Shown here in pieces: positions 7,968 through 61,772 of a stretch of DNA of 64,000 nucleotides; position 1 is the first letter of the stretch, and every line of letters starts with the position of its first letter. The stretch lies in assembly GCF_900217815.1 (NCBI RefSeq), contig NZ_OBMT01000001.1:496001-560000 (forward strand), read 5' to 3'. The DNA comes from Rhodobacter maris. GTDB taxonomy: Bacteria > Pseudomonadota > Alphaproteobacteria > Rhodobacterales > Rhodobacteraceae. The position numbers were made by a program, and so were the translations under genes. Below the pieces are notes generated by a model. That model worked only from the letters and a program-made list of their open reading frames with translations, ran no database searches and was not told where the DNA came from.

Positions 7968-9365
7968 TCAGCCCAGAAGCCCCTTCCAGCGCGCCACCTG
8001 GGCGCGGACCTGATCGGGGGCGGTGCCGCCGTAAGATTGCCGCGACGCGACCGAATTGTGAACCCCGAGCACGGCATAAACGCTCTGATTAAGCGCCGGA
8101 TGCACCTCATGCATCTCCGCCAAGCTCAGGTCGGGCAGATCGCAGCCCTTTTTCTCGGCCAGCGCCACGAGCGTGCCAGTGACGTGGTGGGCATCGCGGA
8201 ACGGCAGCCCCGCCTCGCGCACCAGCCAGTCGGCCAGATCGGTCGCGGTGGAAAATCCGTTCGCCGCCGCCGCCTCGAGTTTCTCGGTGTTGACCGTCAG
8301 ATCGGCAATCATGCCGGTCATCGCGGCAAGCGCCAGCATCAGCGTATCTGCGGCATCAAAGACCTGTTCCTTGTCTTCCTGCATGTCCTTGGAATAGGCG
8401 AGCGGCAGCCCCTTCATCACGGTGAAGAGCGCCACCGCCGCGCCGAGCACGCGGCCAATTTTTGCGCGGATCAGCTCGGCCGCATCGGGGTTGCGCTTTT
8501 GCGGCATGATGGACGAGCCCGTCGACCATTTGTCCGACATCGACACGAAGCGGAACTGCGCCGAGGACCAGATCACCAGCTCTTCCGCCATCCGGCTCAG
8601 GTGCACCGCGCAGATCGCGGAGGCCGAAAGGAATTCAAGCGCGAAATCACGGTCCGAGACGGCATCGAGGCTGTTGGCGGCGGGGCGGTCAAAGCCCAGC
8701 GCCGCGGCGGTCATGTGCCGGTCGATGGCAAAGCCGGTGCCCGCAAGGGCCGCAGCGCCGAGCGGGCATTCGTTCATCCGCTTGCGGGCATCTTCAAAGC
8801 GCGAGCGGTCACGCGCGAACATCTCGACATAGGCCATCATGTGATGGCCAAAGGTCACCGGTTGCGCGGTCTGCAAATGCGTGAAGCCCGGCATCACCCA
8901 GCCCGCGCCCTTCTCGGCCTGCGCGACGAGCACCTTCATCAGCGCGGTGAGCGCCTCGATGGCGGCATCGGCCTGATCGCGCACCCAGAGCCGGAAATCG
9001 GTCGCCACCTGATCATTGCGGCTCCGTGCCGTATGGAGCCGCCCCGCAGGCTCGCCGATGATCTCCTTCAACCGCGCCTCGACATTCATGTGAATGTCTT
9101 CGAGCGCGGTCGAAAACGGGAAATCCCCGGCCTCGATCTCTGACAAGACCGTGAGAAGGCCTTCCCCGATCGCTTCGGCGTCTTTATTGCTGAGGATGCC
9201 TGTGGCGGCGAGCATCGCCGCATGGGCCCGGCTGCCGCGGATATCCTGCGCATAGAGCCGCTTGTCGAACGAGATCGAAGCGTTGATCGCCTCCATGATC
9301 GCGTCCGGACCGGCGGCGAAGCGCCCGCCCCACATGGCGTTCGAGGATTTCGTGTCGTCGGTCAT
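7968..9365 (-). CDS. argH: Argininosuccinate lyase
   Basis: Splits argininosuccinate into arginine and fumarate, the last step of arginine synthesis. The 465-residue protein has the fumarase-superfamily signature [12 protein letters not shown] around residues 280-291, [17 protein letters not shown] near 110, and the normal length. ATG 9365 ([16 protein letters not shown]) is preferred over an upstream start at 9392 because homologues begin just before the WGGRF motif. It diverges from the thioredoxin-like gene with only 25 bp between start codons. Confidence 0.96.
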
Positions 9366-49612: not shown

Positions 49613-49656
49613 CGTGCCCTCCTGCGCCGCGCACGCGGCCTGAAAAACGACAAGCA

Positions 49657-49727
49657 CACCAGTGGGCGCAACGCGCTGACTGGTGGCGATCCTCGCAAAT
49701 GCGAGGACCGGAGGCCTCATCCTCCGG
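49657..49727 (-). promoter_or_regulatory. Three tandem hairpins in the ffh leader
   Basis: Reading toward ffh on the minus strand there are three perfect dyads. Their arms are CCGGAGG/CCTCCGG (49708-49714/49721-49727), TCCTCGC/GCGAGGA (49690-49696/49701-49707, 4-nt loop) and CACCAGT/ACTGGTG (49657-49663/49679-49685, with an inner GCGC pairing). They end 44 bases before the ffh start. The first two abut without spacer. It may be a 5'-UTR regulatory structure or an RNA-stability element; no known riboswitch was recognised. Confidence 0.5.
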
Positions 49728-55480: not shown

Positions 55481-56908
55481 TCACAAGGATGTCTCTGCCT
55501 CGATCCGCGCCGACTGCGCGCAAACCGGCGGATCCGCGGCAGGAGCGGCCGGTTTGACTCGCGCCTCGATCTCGGCATAGAGCAGCCGTGCCACATTCTT
55601 GCCGGTGATCGTCTCGATGCCGCGGAACCCGGGCGAGGAATTGACTTCGAGCACTTTCGCCCCGTCATGGGCGCGCAGCAGGTCCACCCCGGCAACCCCG
55701 AGCCCGAAGGCCCGCGCCGCCTTGACCGCGGCGCTGCGCTCAGCAGGCGAGATCCGCACCGGCTCGCCCGAACCGCCCTGATGCAGGTTGGAACGGAAAT
55801 CCCCCTCCGCGCCGCGCCGCTTCATCGCCGCGACCACTTTGCCGCCGATCACCAGGCAGCGGATGTCTTCGCCCGCCGCCTCGCGCACGAAATGCTGCAC
55901 GAGAAAATTCGCGCGCAGACCGCGGAAGGCGGAAATCACGCTTTCTGCTGCCTTCGTCGTCTCGGCCAGCACCACCCCCTTGCCCTGGCTCGAAGCAATG
56001 AGCTTGACGATCAGCGGCGCGCCGCCGACGAGGGCGATCAGGTTGCGGGTGTCCTTGGGGGAGGAGGCAAAGGCGGTGTCGGGCATGCCGATGCCCGCCC
56101 GCGCGAGGATCTGATGCGCATAAAGCTTGTCGCGCGAGGCGGCGATGCCTTCGGAGCCGTTCACGCAATAGGTGCCGAGCGTTTCGAACTGGCGCACAAC
56201 CGCCGTGCCATAGGGCGTGACCGAGGCGCCGATGCGCGGGATCACCGCATCAAAGCGCGGCAGCCGCTCGCCGTCGTAGCAGACCTCGGGGGCGAGCGTG
56301 TTGATTGCCATGTAACAGCGCGTTGTATCGATCAGATCGACGATATGGCCGCGCGCGCGCCCCTCCTCGACGAGCCGTCCCGTGGTGTAATTGTCTTCGC
56401 GCGACAGCACGGCGATGCGCAGGCTCCGACGGTTTGGCTCCGGGGCGCGCGTCGGCGTGGCATAAAGATCGTAGCTCAGTTCCGGTTGCATCCGGCGCGC
56501 GGTCGGCATGATGGTGATATGGTCGAGCAGGGCCTGCCGCCCGAGCAGCATCCGGCTGGTCATCGTGCCGCGATCGGTCAGGGTCGCCTCGATCGGCCAG
56601 CTCTGCCCGGCCACTTCGATCCGGGTGCGGATCACGAAGCGATGTTCGCTCTCGCCATTCGACGAGGTGACATCTCGCCGATCGACCAGCGGTGCGGCGC
56701 ACCGGACCGCCACATCCGCGCGGCCCGGCACCGGATGCAGCACAAAGCGCACCATCGGCCCGTCCCCCCCGTCGAACGGCGCGATCTCGGCGGCATGGAG
56801 GGCCGAGGTGCGCGCGCCGGTATCCACTTTTGCAAGGATCGCGGGCAGGCCCAGATCGGGCAATGCGAGCCATTCTTCCCAACCGAAGAGCAGGGGGGAG
56901 CTGGTCAT
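55481..56908 (-). CDS. rimK: RimB-like protease domain fused to RimK ATP-grasp ligase
   Basis: A 475-residue two-domain protein. The N-terminal domain (about 1-140) is of the ATP-dependent zinc protease/RimB family (PF05618) with the KVDTGARTSALHA motif and LTDRGTMTSRMLLGR. The C-terminal ATP-grasp domain (about 165-450) is RimK-like: VIPRIGASVTPYGTAVVRQF, LIVKLIASSQGKGVVLAET, GEDIRCLVIGGKVVAAMKRR and EVNSSPGFRGIETITG. RimK adds glutamates to the C-terminus of ribosomal protein S6, and RimB trims or regulates it. Here both are on one chain. ATG 56908 is chosen; the longer frame is unsupported. Confidence 0.87.
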   Translation of the reverse strand: MTSSPLLFGWEEWLALPDLGLPAILAKVDTGARTSALHAAEIAPFDGGDGPMVRFVLHPVPGRADVAVRCAAPLVDRRDVTSSNGESEHRFVIRTRIEVAGQSWPIEATLTDRGTMTSRMLLGRQALLDHITIMPTARRMQPELSYDLYATPTRAPEPNRRSLRIAVLSREDNYTTGRLVEEGRARGHIVDLIDTTRCYMAINTLAPEVCYDGERLPRFDAVIPRIGASVTPYGTAVVRQFETLGTYCVNGSEGIAASRDKLYAHQILARAGIGMPDTAFASSPKDTRNLIALVGGAPLIVKLIASSQGKGVVLAETTKAAESVISAFRGLRANFLVQHFVREAAGEDIRCLVIGGKVVAAMKRRGAEGDFRSNLHQGGSGEPVRISPAERSAAVKAARAFGLGVAGVDLLRAHDGAKVLEVNSSPGFRGIETITGKNVARLLYAEIEARVKPAAPAADPPVCAQSARIEAETSL

Positions 56909-57053
56909 GGACGTTCCTTTCCGAATCTGTCGCCCCTGCCTGCCACGGGATTGTAACGGTTCCGCCCGCGCGGCGGCGCGCGGCGCGAATTTGCGCCGGT
57001 GGATGCCCCTCAAGCGAGGCCCCGCCGCGCCGCGATCACGGCTGCGTGAGGGC

Positions 57054-57080
57054 TGTAACAAAAGGTCGGGTCGCCGCGAA
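57054..57080 (+). promoter_or_regulatory. Candidate ECF (SigF-type) promoter of the bufferin operon
   Basis: TGTAACA (57054-57060) and CGAA (57077-57080) are separated by 16 bp, 50 bp before the bufA start. The pair matches, as I recall it, the GTAAC(C)-N16-CGAA promoter of the Caulobacter SigF/NrsF regulon, and an ECF sigma gene with its NrsF partner is in this operon. A second TGTAAC (56952-56957) lies further upstream without a matching CGAA at this spacing. Confidence 0.6.
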
Positions 57081-57130
57081 ATGCTTGAGGAAGGGCAGAG
57101 AGCCTTTCGGAACCAACAGGGAGACTGACC

Positions 57131-57448
57131 ATGACCGCATCCACCCCCCGCCGCGCATCGCAGCTCACGCTTTGCGCCACGCTCGCCTGTGCGCTTGGCG
57201 CGATGGCGGCCCTGCCTGCCCAGGCCGAAGACATGGAGAAATGCTACGGCGTTGCCCTGGCCGGGCAGAACGACTGCGCCGCGGGTCCCGGCACCACCTG
57301 CGCGGGCACTTCGAAAGTCGATTATCAAGGCAATTCGTGGAAGCTCGTGCCGGCGGGCACCTGCATGACGATGGAACTGCCCGCCGCGGCCGATGGCATG
57401 GCCCGGCATGGCGCGCTGATGCCGCTCGATCGCGATCTCGCCTCGTAA
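57131..57448 (+). CDS. bufA: DUF2282 bufferin precursor peptide (BufA1-like)
   Basis: A 105-residue RiPP-type precursor. The signal peptide ends near residue 32 (ALPAQA-ED). The core has four cysteines at 38, 49, 57 and 78 in the DUF2282 pattern [21 protein letters not shown] and VPAGTCM. In characterised bufferins these cysteines are partly converted to Cu-binding thiooxazoles by the BufB-BufC enzyme before export, giving a periplasmic copper-sequestering protein. It is first in the operon, with an agggag ribosome binding site and a strong hairpin after the stop. Confidence 0.92.
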
Positions 57449-57457
57449 GCCCGCGTC

Positions 57458-57481
57458 GGGGTGCGGGTCCGCCCGCACCTC
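57458..57481 (+). promoter_or_regulatory. Intercistronic hairpin between bufA and bufB
   Basis: GGTGCGGG (57460-57467) / CCCGCACC (57472-57479) with loop TCCG is perfect, and outer G·U and G-C pairs extend it to 57458-57481. It lies 9 bp after the bufA stop and just before the bufB ribosome binding site ggaggt. Such a hairpin after a precursor gene typically stabilises the precursor message or partly terminates it, giving an excess of precursor over enzyme. Confidence 0.7.
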
Positions 57482-57500
57482 CCTTTCCCGGAGGTATCCC

Positions 57501-58358
57501 ATGACCCGTCTTCCCGTCAGCCTGCCCGCTGCCGCAGGGCTCGGCTTCAAGCCGCAGCATTTTGCGCAGATCCGCGCCGATCACGGCCGTGTCGGCTTCT
57601 TCGAGATTCATGCCGAGAATTATCTCGGTGCGGGTGGCCTGCCGCATGCGCAACTGACGGCCTTGCGGGCCGATTACCCGCTCTCGGTGCATGGGGTCGG
57701 GCTCTCGATCGGCGGCGCGGCGCCGCTTGAGCGCGATCACCTCGCCCGGTTGAAGAGCCTCTGTGACCGCTATACCCCCGAGAGCTTCTCCGAACATCTG
57801 GCATGGTCGAGCCATGATGCGGGCTATTTCAACGACCTGCTGCCCCTGCCTTATACCGAGGAGACGCTCGACATTGTCTGCGCCCATGTCGATCAGGTGC
57901 AGGATACGCTCGGCCGGCGGATGCTGTTGGAAAACCCGGCCACCTATCTCCTGTTTGCCGAATCCACATTCCCCGAGACCGAGTTTTTGCGCACCATCGC
58001 CGCGCGTACCGGCTGCGGGCTTCTGCTCGACGTCAACAACCTGTTTGTCTCCTGCACCAATCATCGCCGCGATCCGTGGCAGATGCTCGCCGACTTTCCG
58101 CTCGCGGCGGTGGGCGAGATCCATCTCGGCGGTCACGCCGTGGAGCAGTTGCCCTCGGGGCCGCTTTTGATCGATGCACATGGCAGCCCCGTCGCCGATC
58201 CGGTCTGGGCACTTTGTGCCGAGGTCATCCGTCGCGCCGGGCCGCTGCCACTGCTGATCGAATGGGACAATGACCTGCCCGATTGGCCGGTTCTGGCCGC
58301 CGAGGCCGATCGCGCCACCGCGATGCTGCAGCACGAGGCCCATCATGAACCGGCATGA
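57501..58358 (+). CDS. bufB: DUF692 multinuclear iron oxidase (MNIO; BufB-like)
   Basis: A 285-residue TIM-barrel enzyme of the MbnB/TglH/BufB class that oxidises peptide cysteines with two or three iron ions. Candidate ligands in barrel order are E35-H37-E39-N40 (FFEIHAENY), H64 (LSVHGVG), E98-H99 (SEHLAWS), E144-N145 (LLENPATY), D177-N180 and H188 ([14 protein letters not shown]), E206-H208-H212 (GEIHLGGH), H227 (IDAHGSP) and E254 (LLIEWDND). The length is normal. It overlaps bufC by 14 bp. Confidence 0.93.
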
Positions 58359-59085
58359 CTCAATGCTCGCGCGCTTCAGCGCGGCGCTCGCGGGCGGCGC
58401 CCTGCCCGAGGGGGTTACCGCCTGCGCGCCCGCCGAGGCCGCGCGCCGCTTCGACGTTTATCGCAACAATGTCACCGTGAGCCTCTGCACCGCGCTCGAG
58501 CAGCGCTTCCCGGTCATCTCGCGCCTTGTCGGCGTGGAATTCTTTGCGGCGCTGGCCCGTCACTTCTGCATGGCACATCCGCCGCAAAGCCCGGTGCTGC
58601 ACGAATGGGGGGAGGCCTTTCCCGGATATCTCGAAGCTTGCGCGCCTTTGGCGGGCTATCCCTACATGGGCGACGTGGCGCGGATCGAACTGGCGCGGGG
58701 CCGCGCCTTTCATGCGACCGATGCCGCACCGATTGCCCCCGCGCGGCTGGCTGCGGCCGATCCCGGGACGCTACGGCTGGCCTTGCACCCTTCGGTCTGC
58801 CTGATGCGGCTGGCTACCCCCGCCGTCTCGATCTGGGCCCGCAATCAGCCCGGCGCCGAGGCGCACCCGATCCGCCCCGGCCCAGAAATCGCCTTGATAT
58901 TGCGCGATCGCGCCTATCAGGTGCCGGTCCGCGCCATCTCGTCCGCAGAGGCGAGCCTGATCGCAGCGCTCGGGCGTGGCGCACCCTTGCTGCGCGCCGC
59001 CGCCGAAGTGCCGGACCTTGACCCCACAGAACTGTTGCGCGCGCTGATGCAGGCGGGCGCGCTTTGCGAAAGGGCCGCCACATGA
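58345..59085 (+). CDS. bufC: DUF2063 partner protein (BufC-like)
   Basis: A 246-residue protein with the DUF2063 N-terminal helical domain ([50 protein letters not shown]). A second domain follows ([20 protein letters not shown]) similar to the recognition partner of MNIO enzymes. BufC binds the precursor leader and delivers the core to BufB. ATG 58345 (MNRHDS) overlaps bufB; the frame opens upstream at 58270. The stop overlaps the DoxX start. Confidence 0.88.
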
Positions 59086-59522
59086 CCGCGCTGATCCGCC
59101 TGAACCAGTTTTTCGCCCGGGTGCCGCTCGATCTTGTCAGCCTCGCGCTGCGGCTCTTTCCGGCCTGCGTCTTCCTGCAATCGGGGCGTCTCAAAGTGGA
59201 GGGTCTCACGATCAAGCCCGCCACCTATTACCTTTTCGAGCACGAATACGGGTTGCCCCTGATCCCGCCAGAGAGCGCGGCCGTGCTGGCCACTACGGCG
59301 GAACACGTTTTGCCCGCGTTGTTGATCGCAGGGCTCTTAACCCGGCTCTCGGCGCTGGAGCTGATCGCGATGACGGCGGTGATCGAGATCTTCGTCTACC
59401 CGGAGGCCTGGATCACCCACGGGCTCTGGGGGGCGGCGCTCTTCGCGCTGGTCGTGCTGGGGCCCGGGCGGTTCTCGCTCGACCGGGCGCTCGGGGTCGA
59501 CACCGGGCGCGGGGGGGATTGA
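59082..59522 (+). CDS. DoxX family membrane protein
   Basis: A 146-residue four-TM protein: [55 protein letters not shown] and [18 protein letters not shown]. DoxX proteins are quinone-linked membrane proteins and often follow bufferin genes, possibly linking modification to redox balance. ATG 59082 overlaps the bufC stop by four bases. The role in bufferin maturation is not established. Confidence 0.87.
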
Positions 59523-59628
59523 GGTGGATCTTGCCCTGGCTCCCCCTTCCGCTGCCTCCCGCCATTGCCGCCCAGCCCCGGGATCGGTTAGGATCGCGGA
59601 ACCGAACGTCGCGCGGCCGGAGACGGGA

Positions 59629-60162
59629 ATGGCAGACCACGACGAATGGGCGGATCTTTTGCGGCGCGCCAACGAGGGCGACGGCATGGCGCTGGCGCAA
59701 TTCCTGCGCGCGGTCAGCCCGGCCATCCGCACCATCCTGCGCGCCCGCGGCTCTGCGCTGCCGCGCGATCAGCACGAAGACGTGCTGCAGGAGGTGTTGC
59801 TTGCAATCCATCTGAAACGTCATAGCTGGCGCCCCGACGCCCCGGTCCGCCCCTGGGTGCATGCGATCGCCCGCTACAAGCTGATCGATGCCTGCCGGCG
59901 GCGGGGCGCGGCCATCCATGTGCCGATCGAGCCCTTCGCGGAAGTGCTGGAAGACCCGCATCAGCACCCGCCGCTGGCGGGACGCGATGCGGAGAGACTT
60001 CTGGCCCGGATCGATCCGCGCTCGGCGGCGCTGGTGCGCGCCGTCGCGCTCGAGGGGGACAGCGCCGAGGAAGCCGGGGCGCCGCTCGGCCTCTCGGCGG
60101 GCGCGGCGCGGGTGGCCCTGCACCGCGCGCTCAGACGTCTTGGCCAGATCGTGAAAGGATGA
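59629..60162 (+). CDS. sigF: ECF RNA polymerase sigma factor (SigF-like)
   Basis: A 177-residue ECF sigma factor: region 2 EVLLAIHLKRHSWRPDAPVR, then PWVHAIARYKLIDACRRRG; region 4 EEAGAPLGLSAGAARVALHR. It is predicted to be held at the membrane by the adjacent NrsF protein and released under stress (copper, chromate or oxidants in Caulobacter). It likely transcribes the operon from the TGTAAC/CGAA promoter. ATG 59629 after a ggag site is chosen; GTG 59524 opens the same frame. The 106-bp gap from doxX contains no other gene. Confidence 0.88.
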   Translation: MADHDEWADLLRRANEGDGMALAQFLRAVSPAIRTILRARGSALPRDQHEDVLQEVLLAIHLKRHSWRPDAPVRPWVHAIARYKLIDACRRRGAAIHVPIEPFAEVLEDPHQHPPLAGRDAERLLARIDPRSAALVRAVALEGDSAEEAGAPLGLSAGAARVALHRALRRLGQIVKG

Positions 60163-60166
60163 TGCG

Positions 60167-60808
60167 ATGACCACACCCGATCGGACCGATGCCTTCATCG
60201 AGCACCTTGCGACGCAGCCGGACCCCGCGCCCTTGCGCCCCTCCCGGGTGACGGGGGCCGCCCTTGCAGCGCTGCTGTGCGGCCTTGGTGTGCTTTATGC
60301 GCTCCTTGGCCTGCGGCCCGACCTCGCTCTCGCAATCCGCCAGCCGGTGATCGCGGCCAAGACGCTGGTGCCGCTCCTGCTCGGCCTGCTCGCACTGGGC
60401 GCGGCGTTTGCCAGCGCAAGGCCCGCGCAACATGTCACGCTCTGGCCGCTGTTGCTGCCGCTCGCCGCCGCGTTCGGGCTTTTTGTGGCGCGCGTCCTGG
60501 CCACGTCGCCCGAGCGGATGGTGCCCGAATTGCTCGGCCATACCGTGGGCGCCTGCCTGTTGTCGATCACCGCGCTCTCGCTTGTGCCGCTGGGCCTTGC
60601 GCTCGGCGGTTTGCGCGCGGGCGCCTCGACCCGGCCCGCGCGAACCGGCGCCCTGGCAGGGCTTGCCGTCGGCGCTTTCGCCGTGGTGGGCTATTCCCTG
60701 CATTGCCCCGAGGATTCACCGATGTTCTATGTGCCCTGGTATGGCAGCGGCATTGCGCTGAGCAGCGCGCTCGGGGCGATAGCGGGGCGCTGGCTTCTGC
60801 GCTGGTGA
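60167..60808 (+). CDS. nrsF: NrsF/DUF1109 anti-sigma factor
   Basis: A 213-residue inner-membrane protein with six TM helices after a short cytoplasmic N-terminus (MTTPDRTDAFIEHLA), the NrsF layout. Two cysteines at 130 (GHTVGACLL) and 180 (YSLHCPEDSPMFY) correspond to the conserved pair needed for stress sensing in Caulobacter NrsF. The ATG is 4 bp after the sigma gene stop. It most likely sequesters the sigma factor until metals or oxidants modify the cysteines. Confidence 0.9.
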   Translation: MTTPDRTDAFIEHLATQPDPAPLRPSRVTGAALAALLCGLGVLYALLGLRPDLALAIRQPVIAAKTLVPLLLGLLALGAAFASARPAQHVTLWPLLLPLAAAFGLFVARVLATSPERMVPELLGHTVGACLLSITALSLVPLGLALGGLRAGASTRPARTGALAGLAVGAFAVVGYSLHCPEDSPMFYVPWYGSGIALSSALGAIAGRWLLRW

Positions 60809-60835
60809 GGCCCCGAGGGCTCCGGCGCGCCTTTG

Positions 60836-61735
60836 TCAGAGATCATTCCGGGGCGCGAGATCCCTGCGGATTGCCGCACCATCGCGGCCGGGCGGGGCAC
60901 CGAACATGCGGCGATATTCGCGGCTGAACTGCGACGGGCTCTCGTAACCGATCGCATAACCGACGCGGGCGACATCCGCCGTATCGGCAAGGAGCAGGCG
61001 CCGCGCCTCCTGCAAGCGCAGCTGCTTTTGATACTGCACCGGTGTCATCGTCGTCACCGCCTTGAAATGGCGATGGAAGGTCGCGGGGCTCATCCCCGCG
61101 ACATCGGCGAGCTGTTGTATGTTCAGTTGATCGGCAAAACGCTCGCGAATGCGCGCAATGCTCCGGCCGATCCGCGCCATGTGGCTGCCCGCAAGCCCGA
61201 TTTGGCGCAACACCCGCCCCATCGGACCGTTCAGCAGGAGCCAGGTGATCTCGCGCCGGATCAGCGGAGAAAGAATCGCAATGTCCCGCGGCCGGTCGCA
61301 AAGGTCCAGCAATCGGTACAGAGGATCCGTGAGCTCCGTCGCGAACTCATGCACCGCGAGTGCAGGATGTGCCGGGATGTCCTCAGCTTCCCCGAGTTCC
61401 AGCAACAGTTCGGAAATGGTCGCGGGATCGAGCGCGAGGCTGAAGGCCAGATAGGGGCGCTCCGCTGTCGCGCGGGTGATCTCGGCGCGGATCGGCACTT
61501 CCATCGAGGCGATCAGGCATTTTCCTTCATCATAGCGAAAAGCGCGATCGCCGAGCATGCTGGTCTTCGCTCCTTGCACGACGACGCAGAGCGAGGGGCG
61601 GTAAACCGCATGGATCGGCCCGGTTGGAACCGAAACCGAGGTCAGATGGAGCCCATCAATCGGGGTCTCCCGGCCATATCTTTGCCACAGGCGGGCAATC
61701 ACATCTCTGAGACGGGCAAGATCGTCGTTTTCCAT
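60836..61735 (-). CDS. AraC-family transcriptional regulator
   Basis: A 299-residue regulator. The N-terminal domain of the AraC_N type has GPIHAVYRPSLCVVVQGAK and FRYDEGKCLIASMEVPIRAE. The C-terminal double HTH has LNIQQLADVAGMSPATFHRH, FKAVTTMTPVQYQKQLRLQE and VARVGYAIGYESPSQFSREY. It diverges from the aldo/keto reductase gene 174 bp away, with palindromes between them, and probably activates it. ATG 61735 is chosen inside a much longer open frame. Confidence 0.88.
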   Translation of the reverse strand: MENDDLARLRDVIARLWQRYGRETPIDGLHLTSVSVPTGPIHAVYRPSLCVVVQGAKTSMLGDRAFRYDEGKCLIASMEVPIRAEITRATAERPYLAFSLALDPATISELLLELGEAEDIPAHPALAVHEFATELTDPLYRLLDLCDRPRDIAILSPLIRREITWLLLNGPMGRVLRQIGLAGSHMARIGRSIARIRERFADQLNIQQLADVAGMSPATFHRHFKAVTTMTPVQYQKQLRLQEARRLLLADTADVARVGYAIGYESPSQFSREYRRMFGAPPGRDGAAIRRDLAPRNDL

Positions 61736-61772
61736 GGCGTGAAATCTAGCATCGCAACGTCTGCCAGCGCAG

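Follow-up and report, generated by a model that had tools for sequence, protein, structure and literature searches.

Does a sigma factor encoded within a bufferin operon control that operon by itself, or does a second regulator act at the same promoter? The question is raised by six open reading frames (ORFs), bufA, bufB, bufC, doxX, sigF and nrsF, at positions 57131–60808 of a 64,000-nucleotide (nt) stretch of DNA, here called the window, from a genome of 3.83 Mb in 57 contigs. All six are open and lie on one (plus) strand. From sequence comparison we consider it probable that this is a Buf1 bufferin operon controlled by the sigma factor SigF and its inhibitor NrsF, with a second, CenR-type input at bufA. 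The operon is one further member of a large described class, and the promoter is the more interesting part. Both promoter elements are additions to an initial annotation of this DNA, which had correctly recognized six co-directional genes of the families described below.

The six genes form a Buf1 operon

The host is a Rhodobacter species near R. capsulatus and R. aestuarii, whose BufB proteins (84% and 85% identity, respectively) are the closest relatives among the best 80 of 334 related loci. These 80 loci and the window make up the set of 81 used for comparison. In the profile searches that had been suggested as a check, all six genes score above the Pfam gathering cut-offs (given below as the second of each pair of bit scores). 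The product of bufA (57131–57448, 105 residues) is a DUF2282 bufferin precursor (PF10048, 91.1 versus 22.4). Residues 12–30 are hydrophobic in a hydropathy scan, as in an N-terminal signal, and an AQA-E cleavage-like motif was judged by eye. The precursor had been described as having four cysteines; there are six in all, and the description fits the part downstream of the apparent signal peptide, where Cys 38, 49, 57 and 78 are each kept in 81/81 rows. The bufB gene (57501–58358, 285 residues) encodes an MNIO bufferin maturase, which matches MbnB_TglH_ChrH (PF05114, 347.1 versus 25) and exceeds the curated cut-off of the NCBIfam BufB maturase model NF050167 (377.9 versus 310). The His, Asp, Glu and Asn residues that are invariant in the 81 rows include H64, H99, E144, D177, N180, H208, D225, H227 and E254, and iron ligands of MNIO enzymes are presumably among them. 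Solved chains matched by BufB include 3bww and MbnB 7dz9.

The remaining four genes encode a DUF2063 partner protein (bufC, 58345–59085, 246 residues; PF09836, 86.6 versus 27.2), a DoxX-family membrane protein (doxX, 59082–59522, 146 residues; PF07681, 56.7 versus 23.6), an extracytoplasmic function (ECF) sigma factor (sigF, 59629–60162, 177 residues; Sigma70_r2, 31.6 versus 24) and a membrane anti-sigma factor (nrsF, 60167–60808, 213 residues; PF06532, 156.1 versus 26.8). BufC scores 59.8 against the NCBIfam HvfC equivalog model, below its cut-off of 142. SigF is above the cut-off of NCBIfam TIGR02937 (46.2 versus 42.9) and slightly under those of the region 4 sigma models. Spacing along the operon is 52, −14, −4, 106 and 4 base pairs (bp), with the value of 106 assuming the ATG at 59629 as the sigF start. 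The description of the genes as tightly packed is therefore apt for bufB-bufC-doxX, where neighbours overlap by 14 and 4 bp, and for sigF-nrsF, and too strong for the gaps of 52 bp between bufA and bufB and 106 bp between doxX and sigF. At an expectation value (E) of 0.001, the whole genome contains one DUF2282, one MNIO and one NrsF gene, in line with the proposal of a single bufferin system with SigF/NrsF. By its gene content the operon is a Buf1 bufferin cluster of a kind already described: that content is the same as in the Buf1 clusters of a 2025 MNIO survey, which found genes for sigma factors and NrsF in clusters of the Buf1 type and none in those of the Buf2 type (PMC12452194).

A SigF-type promoter precedes bufA

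Upstream of bufA we find GTAACA-N16-CGAA (57055–57080, plus strand), which ends 50 bp before the gene. It contains the core of the SigF promoter motif reported for Caulobacter, GTAACC-N16-CGAA (PMC3511200), and is one base off the full motif. The 81 loci were sorted by a simple rule into 17 embedded, 8 embedded-with-insert, 24 divergent and 32 without sigF in the fetched piece. The last group is an upper bound because some pieces end at contig ends (for example L078 and L086), and L111 is classed as embedded from a weak sigF match (score 22). With at most one mismatch, a SigF-type site is present at bufA in 16/17 embedded, 8/8 embedded-with-insert, 17/24 divergent and 5/32 sigF-less loci; the corresponding means over single-base shuffles, the form of shuffle control used throughout, are 0.36, 0.06, 0.54 and 0.68 loci. 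The reversed motif gives exact matches in none of the groups and, with one mismatch, matches in 3/32 sigF-less bufA regions and 2/24 divergent sigF regions. At eight alternative spacings bufA has no exact match in front of it, and divergent sigF has two at spacing 12 and one at 15.

The site 5′ of sigF differs between the classes. It is present in 22/24 divergent loci and in none of the 22 Rhodobacterales embedded loci, in which the entire doxX-sigF stretch was scanned. These 22 are the 25 embedded loci, with or without insert, minus L111 (Zoogloea) and the rhizobial L109 and L115, the last two of which each have a one-mismatch SigF-type site at sigF. In the Rhodobacterales loci, SigF self-amplification would therefore run only via the bufferin transcript. 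A tree of BufABCD covering 46 of the 81 rows unites the 22 embedded loci in a single clade of 28 (100/99), which also takes in six sigF-less loci scattered among them. The embedded gene order therefore probably arose once in Rhodobacterales; the Roseobacteraceae loci L102 and L103 are outside this tree. In a tree of BufB only, with all 81 rows, the window and its two closest relatives branch separately from the remaining embedded loci (weak support, 94/51), and the embedded label requires seven changes. We prefer the BufABCD tree.

Basal SigF may come from a possible weak sigma-70-like promoter in front of sigF, TTGCCG-N18-TAGGAT (59565–59594, plus strand), read by eye from the three-species alignment; a sigma-70 consensus scan of 56900–60950 reported no promoter, this element included. 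Other GTAAC-N17-CGAA sites in the genome were considered as SigF targets and rejected: the ORF lists around two of them (L003 and L005), inspected by eye, have no bufferin, DoxX or sulfoxide-reductase genes.

A conserved dyad lies next to the SigF-type site

When the region is aligned with its counterparts in R. capsulatus and R. aestuarii, a second conserved block appears, TCACGGCTGCGTGAG (57036–57050), immediately 5′ of the −35 element at a distance of 4 bp. It is a near-palindrome of the form TCACG-N4-CGTGA. We counted the dyad, at 8 or more of its 10 bases, in promoters that have a SigF-type site and sufficient upstream sequence (47 bufA and 24 sigF rows), and found it in 40 of the former and 1 of the latter. 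The distance from dyad to GTAAC is exactly 5 nt in 30 of the 40. Column information is 0.45–1.27 bits at eight of the ten dyad positions and 0.15 and 0.23 bits at the other two; columns −40 to −21 have at most 0.33 bits. The genome has six perfect copies of the dyad, compared with one of the reversed control. The bufA promoter thus combines two elements in a compact arrangement that is conserved in more than 10 genera, and the bufA promoters with the box and the sigF promoters without it make a ready-made contrast.

The dyad resembles the binding site of CenR, a response regulator of the cell envelope that is essential. ChIP-seq (chromatin immunoprecipitation sequencing) in R. sphaeroides, as reported in PMC9275681, identified 31 CenR sites with the consensus TGA-N8-TGA, 28 of them directly 5′ of a −35 element, and including ACACGAGCGCGTGAG at cenR itself and TCACCTCCTCGTGAG at RSP_2718. 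Both the 15-bp box and its placement are as at bufA. With a matrix built from these 31 sites, whose leave-one-out scores range from −7.5 to 15.0, the bufA box has the highest score, 16.0 in the minus-strand reading, among the 127,972 strand-positions of the window. Across loci, the matrix finds the region upstream of bufA with a shuffle p of at most 0.05 in 62/81 cases. A score of at least 12 is reached there in 55/81 loci, compared with 2/81 control pieces of bufB coding sequence and 1/214 pieces upstream of other long, mechanically called ORFs from the same loci.

Could the dyad belong to the promoter itself? In this alternative, control is by SigF and NrsF as in Caulobacter, and the dyad is an extended promoter or UP-like feature without a regulator of its own. 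Its nearly fixed distance from the SigF −35 element would be expected, and induction by SigF accounts for the Caulobacter data. However, nearly all SigF-type promoters of sigF lack the dyad, some sigF-less loci that have no SigF-type site, for example in Pseudovibrio and Rhodovulum, still have it in front of bufA, and it fits a CenR motif published independently. We therefore regard a regulator-free dyad as unlikely. Returning to a CenR-type input, the CenR layer would be wider than the SigF layer, because the box is also found 5′ of bufA in loci without sigF.

Two sigF-less Rhizobium-type loci (L075 and L083) have both a one-mismatch SigF-type site and a dyad, 10 nt from GTAAC, in front of bufA; control there is possibly in trans.

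CenR is the best candidate for the proposed second regulator

CenR is the most likely candidate owner of the dyad, with a related OmpR-family regulator as the alternative. Among 13 OmpR-type regulators of the host, one (L137) shares the Asp residues reported for CenR at 11–13, 51 and 56 (PMC9275681), in a numbering that depends on the start codon chosen. Its own upstream region contains the box TCACCCTTGCGTGAG, with a matrix score of 14.7.

Several observations weigh against our account. The box in front of this gene is not unique, as 4/13 regulator genes score at least 12. Other published CenR targets score low in this genome (tolQ 9.3, two msrA-family genes 4.3 and 6.7). Read on the plus strand, the bufA box scores 10.5 and ranks 26th in the window; 28/31 of the published sites are co-directional. 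The dyad is absent from 7/47 bufA promoters, in some Paracoccus, rhizobial and methylocystacean loci. The naming of CenR is drawn from motif and position. As for SigF, the GTAAC-N17-CGAA core has 4 sites in the whole genome compared with 20 for the reversed control, and core matches alone therefore mean little; the support for the bufA site is its conservation across loci. Finally, nrsF scores 82 against the NCBIfam AntiSigF_NrsF equivalog model, whose cut-off is 300, while falling in the same Pfam family.

Two of the four regulators that score at least 12 look CusR/CopR-like, a naming that we assume, and their boxes are TTACAAATTTGTGAT (15.2) and TGACGTGGTCTTTAC (12.6). This makes a copper-responsive OmpR-family regulator an alternative owner of the dyad, which would give the bufferin genes two separate metal inputs. 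Such an arrangement would suit the copper-related function of bufferins, and both regulators have TTACA-type boxes in a similar frame near their own starts. But these boxes read TTACA...TGTGA and TGACG...TTTAC, whereas the TCACG...CGTGA of bufA matches the published sites at cenR and RSP_2718 and the box of the CenR candidate. A copper-responsive owner is thus a minority possibility, and CenR is preferred. We also considered UzcR of Caulobacter and rejected it by eye, since the half-sites given in a review, CATTAC-N6-TTAA, do not fit.

Within the literature searched, the pairing of SigF and CenR-like promoter elements appears to be undescribed. Among open-licence papers, the listings for the motif strings and for CenR together with the whole word 'bufferin' were empty, and the listing for the gene families in Rhodobacter included none on this link. 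In the CenR study, Table 1 of the regulon has no operon annotated as bufferin, DUF692 or DUF2282, with some entries hypothetical, and the main text does not contain the word DUF692 (PMC9275681). The main text of the MNIO survey is without the words promoter and two-component (PMC12452194).

The genome has nine other CenR-like dyad sites. Four of them (L120, L121, L122 and L126) lie 40–204 bp 5′ of genes for a TrkH-type transporter, a possible outer-membrane protein, a Met-rich EF-hand protein and MreB; the possible outer-membrane protein has no NCBIfam match. Together these genes could make up an envelope regulon; no clear theme of this kind emerges at the remaining five sites (L118, L119, L124, L125 and L127).

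NrsF carries the conserved cysteine pair

The initial annotation gave NrsF six membrane segments and two cysteines. A simple hydropathy scan shows five clear segments; Caulobacter NrsF is described with six (PMC3511200). There are three cysteines (38, 130 and 180), two of them conserved, Cys130 in 44/45 and Cys180 in 45/45 aligned rows. These two seem to be counterparts of C131 and C181 in Caulobacter NrsF, whose replacement is reported to raise expression of the regulon (PMC3511200).

In two Paracoccus contigs a regulator gene seems to be split over two frames, by a frame break or a sequence error: sigF in P. marcusii (L061, 7551–8592) and nrsF in a Paracoccus sp. (L059, 8015–9225). In eight loci of one Rhodobacter-group lineage (L047, L049, L050, L054, L056, L058, L066 and L079) extra genes are inserted between doxX and sigF. 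The families were checked in L047, where the insert (8039–9175) encodes a DsbD/CcdA-type membrane protein and an exported thioredoxin with a CSTC motif; a 236-residue frame, equal in length to the first of these, is present in 8/8 insert loci. Proteins of this type might keep the cysteines of NrsF or of the bufferin reduced.

A model for control of the operon

In the unstressed cell, SigF would be held by NrsF in the inner membrane. Copper or another thiol-reactive metal would act on the conserved NrsF cysteines and free SigF, whose release has been shown in Caulobacter under chromium. SigF would then transcribe bufABCD-sigF-nrsF from the SigF-type promoter, such that the sigma factor and its inhibitor share the message of the product. 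This would be positive feedback with a built-in brake. The dyad 5′ of the −35 element would be bound by CenR, or by another OmpR-family regulator related to it, which would help RNA polymerase at bufA. BufB and BufC would convert precursor cysteines to thiooxazoles, and the exported peptide would buffer periplasmic copper, both activities being known for relatives; the thiooxazoles of a related peptide correspond to −4 Da per cysteine (PMC13097082). Newly made NrsF would close the loop. We infer the single transcript for the six genes, the action of CenR, the dynamics of the loop and the function of the product in this host. We think it quite improbable that the peptide is unmodified or serves a purpose other than copper, such as other metals or oxidants: a related gig cluster does respond to gold and silver too (PMC8224329), and the authors of the MNIO survey foresee functions that go beyond copper for many peptides of this kind (PMC12452194), but neither the four Buf1 cysteines nor the MNIO core residues vary, and BufB exceeds the bufferin maturase cut-off.

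Beyond this operon, we suggest tentatively, as a proposal that could nearly as well hold as fail, that in Rhodobacterales and their neighbours bufferin synthesis is jointly controlled by metal-released SigF and the essential envelope system CenKR, with the state of the envelope setting the gain. If true, production of a copper peptide would be linked to an essential envelope regulator, joining two stress responses.

Comparison with Caulobacter

The closest described parallel is CC3252–CC3257 of Caulobacter crescentus/vibrioides, which has the same six families, a SigF-type promoter 5′ of the DUF2282 gene and the NrsF cysteine pair. There, SigF drives CC3254–CC3257 and a second cluster, CC2907–CC2905, and is inhibited by NrsF, CC3252 (PMC3511200); here there is one DUF2282 gene. 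In Caulobacter, sigF-nrsF (CC3253–CC3252) is a separate operon with its own SigF-type promoter, adjoining CC3254–CC3257 (PMC3511200) and, to judge from gene numbering and operon order, divergent from it. In the window, by contrast, the six genes share one strand and sigF lacks such a promoter. To describe the regulators as lying inside the operon 'rather than elsewhere', as had been done, overstates the difference: the Caulobacter pair adjoins the bufferin genes, and Buf1 clusters hold sigma factor and NrsF genes.

In Caulobacter, chromium and cadmium induce the regulon, and SigF is released under chromium stress (PMC3511200). Under copper the whole regulon rises, including sigF, and a sigF mutant is copper sensitive (PMC8224329). 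A role in oxidant defence, also proposed for the present operon, finds mixed support in the Caulobacter data: two regulon genes rose at most twofold with four oxidative agents, and sigF is required for survival of peroxide in stationary phase (PMC3511200).

Neighbouring genes and other features

A hairpin between bufA and bufB (57440–57505) was considered as an attenuator and rejected, with a z score of −0.73 and 44/200 shuffles folding equally well or better. On the minus strand, divergent from bufA, a gene at 55481–56953 encodes an ATP-dependent zinc-protease domain fused to a RimK ATP-grasp domain, and an AraC-type gene, also on the minus strand, lies at 60836–61750 on the other side of the operon. 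Family comparison shows no link to bufferins for either neighbour. Further away, an Rfam 'ffh' RNA match of 60.3 bits is located at 49649–49700 on the minus strand of the window.

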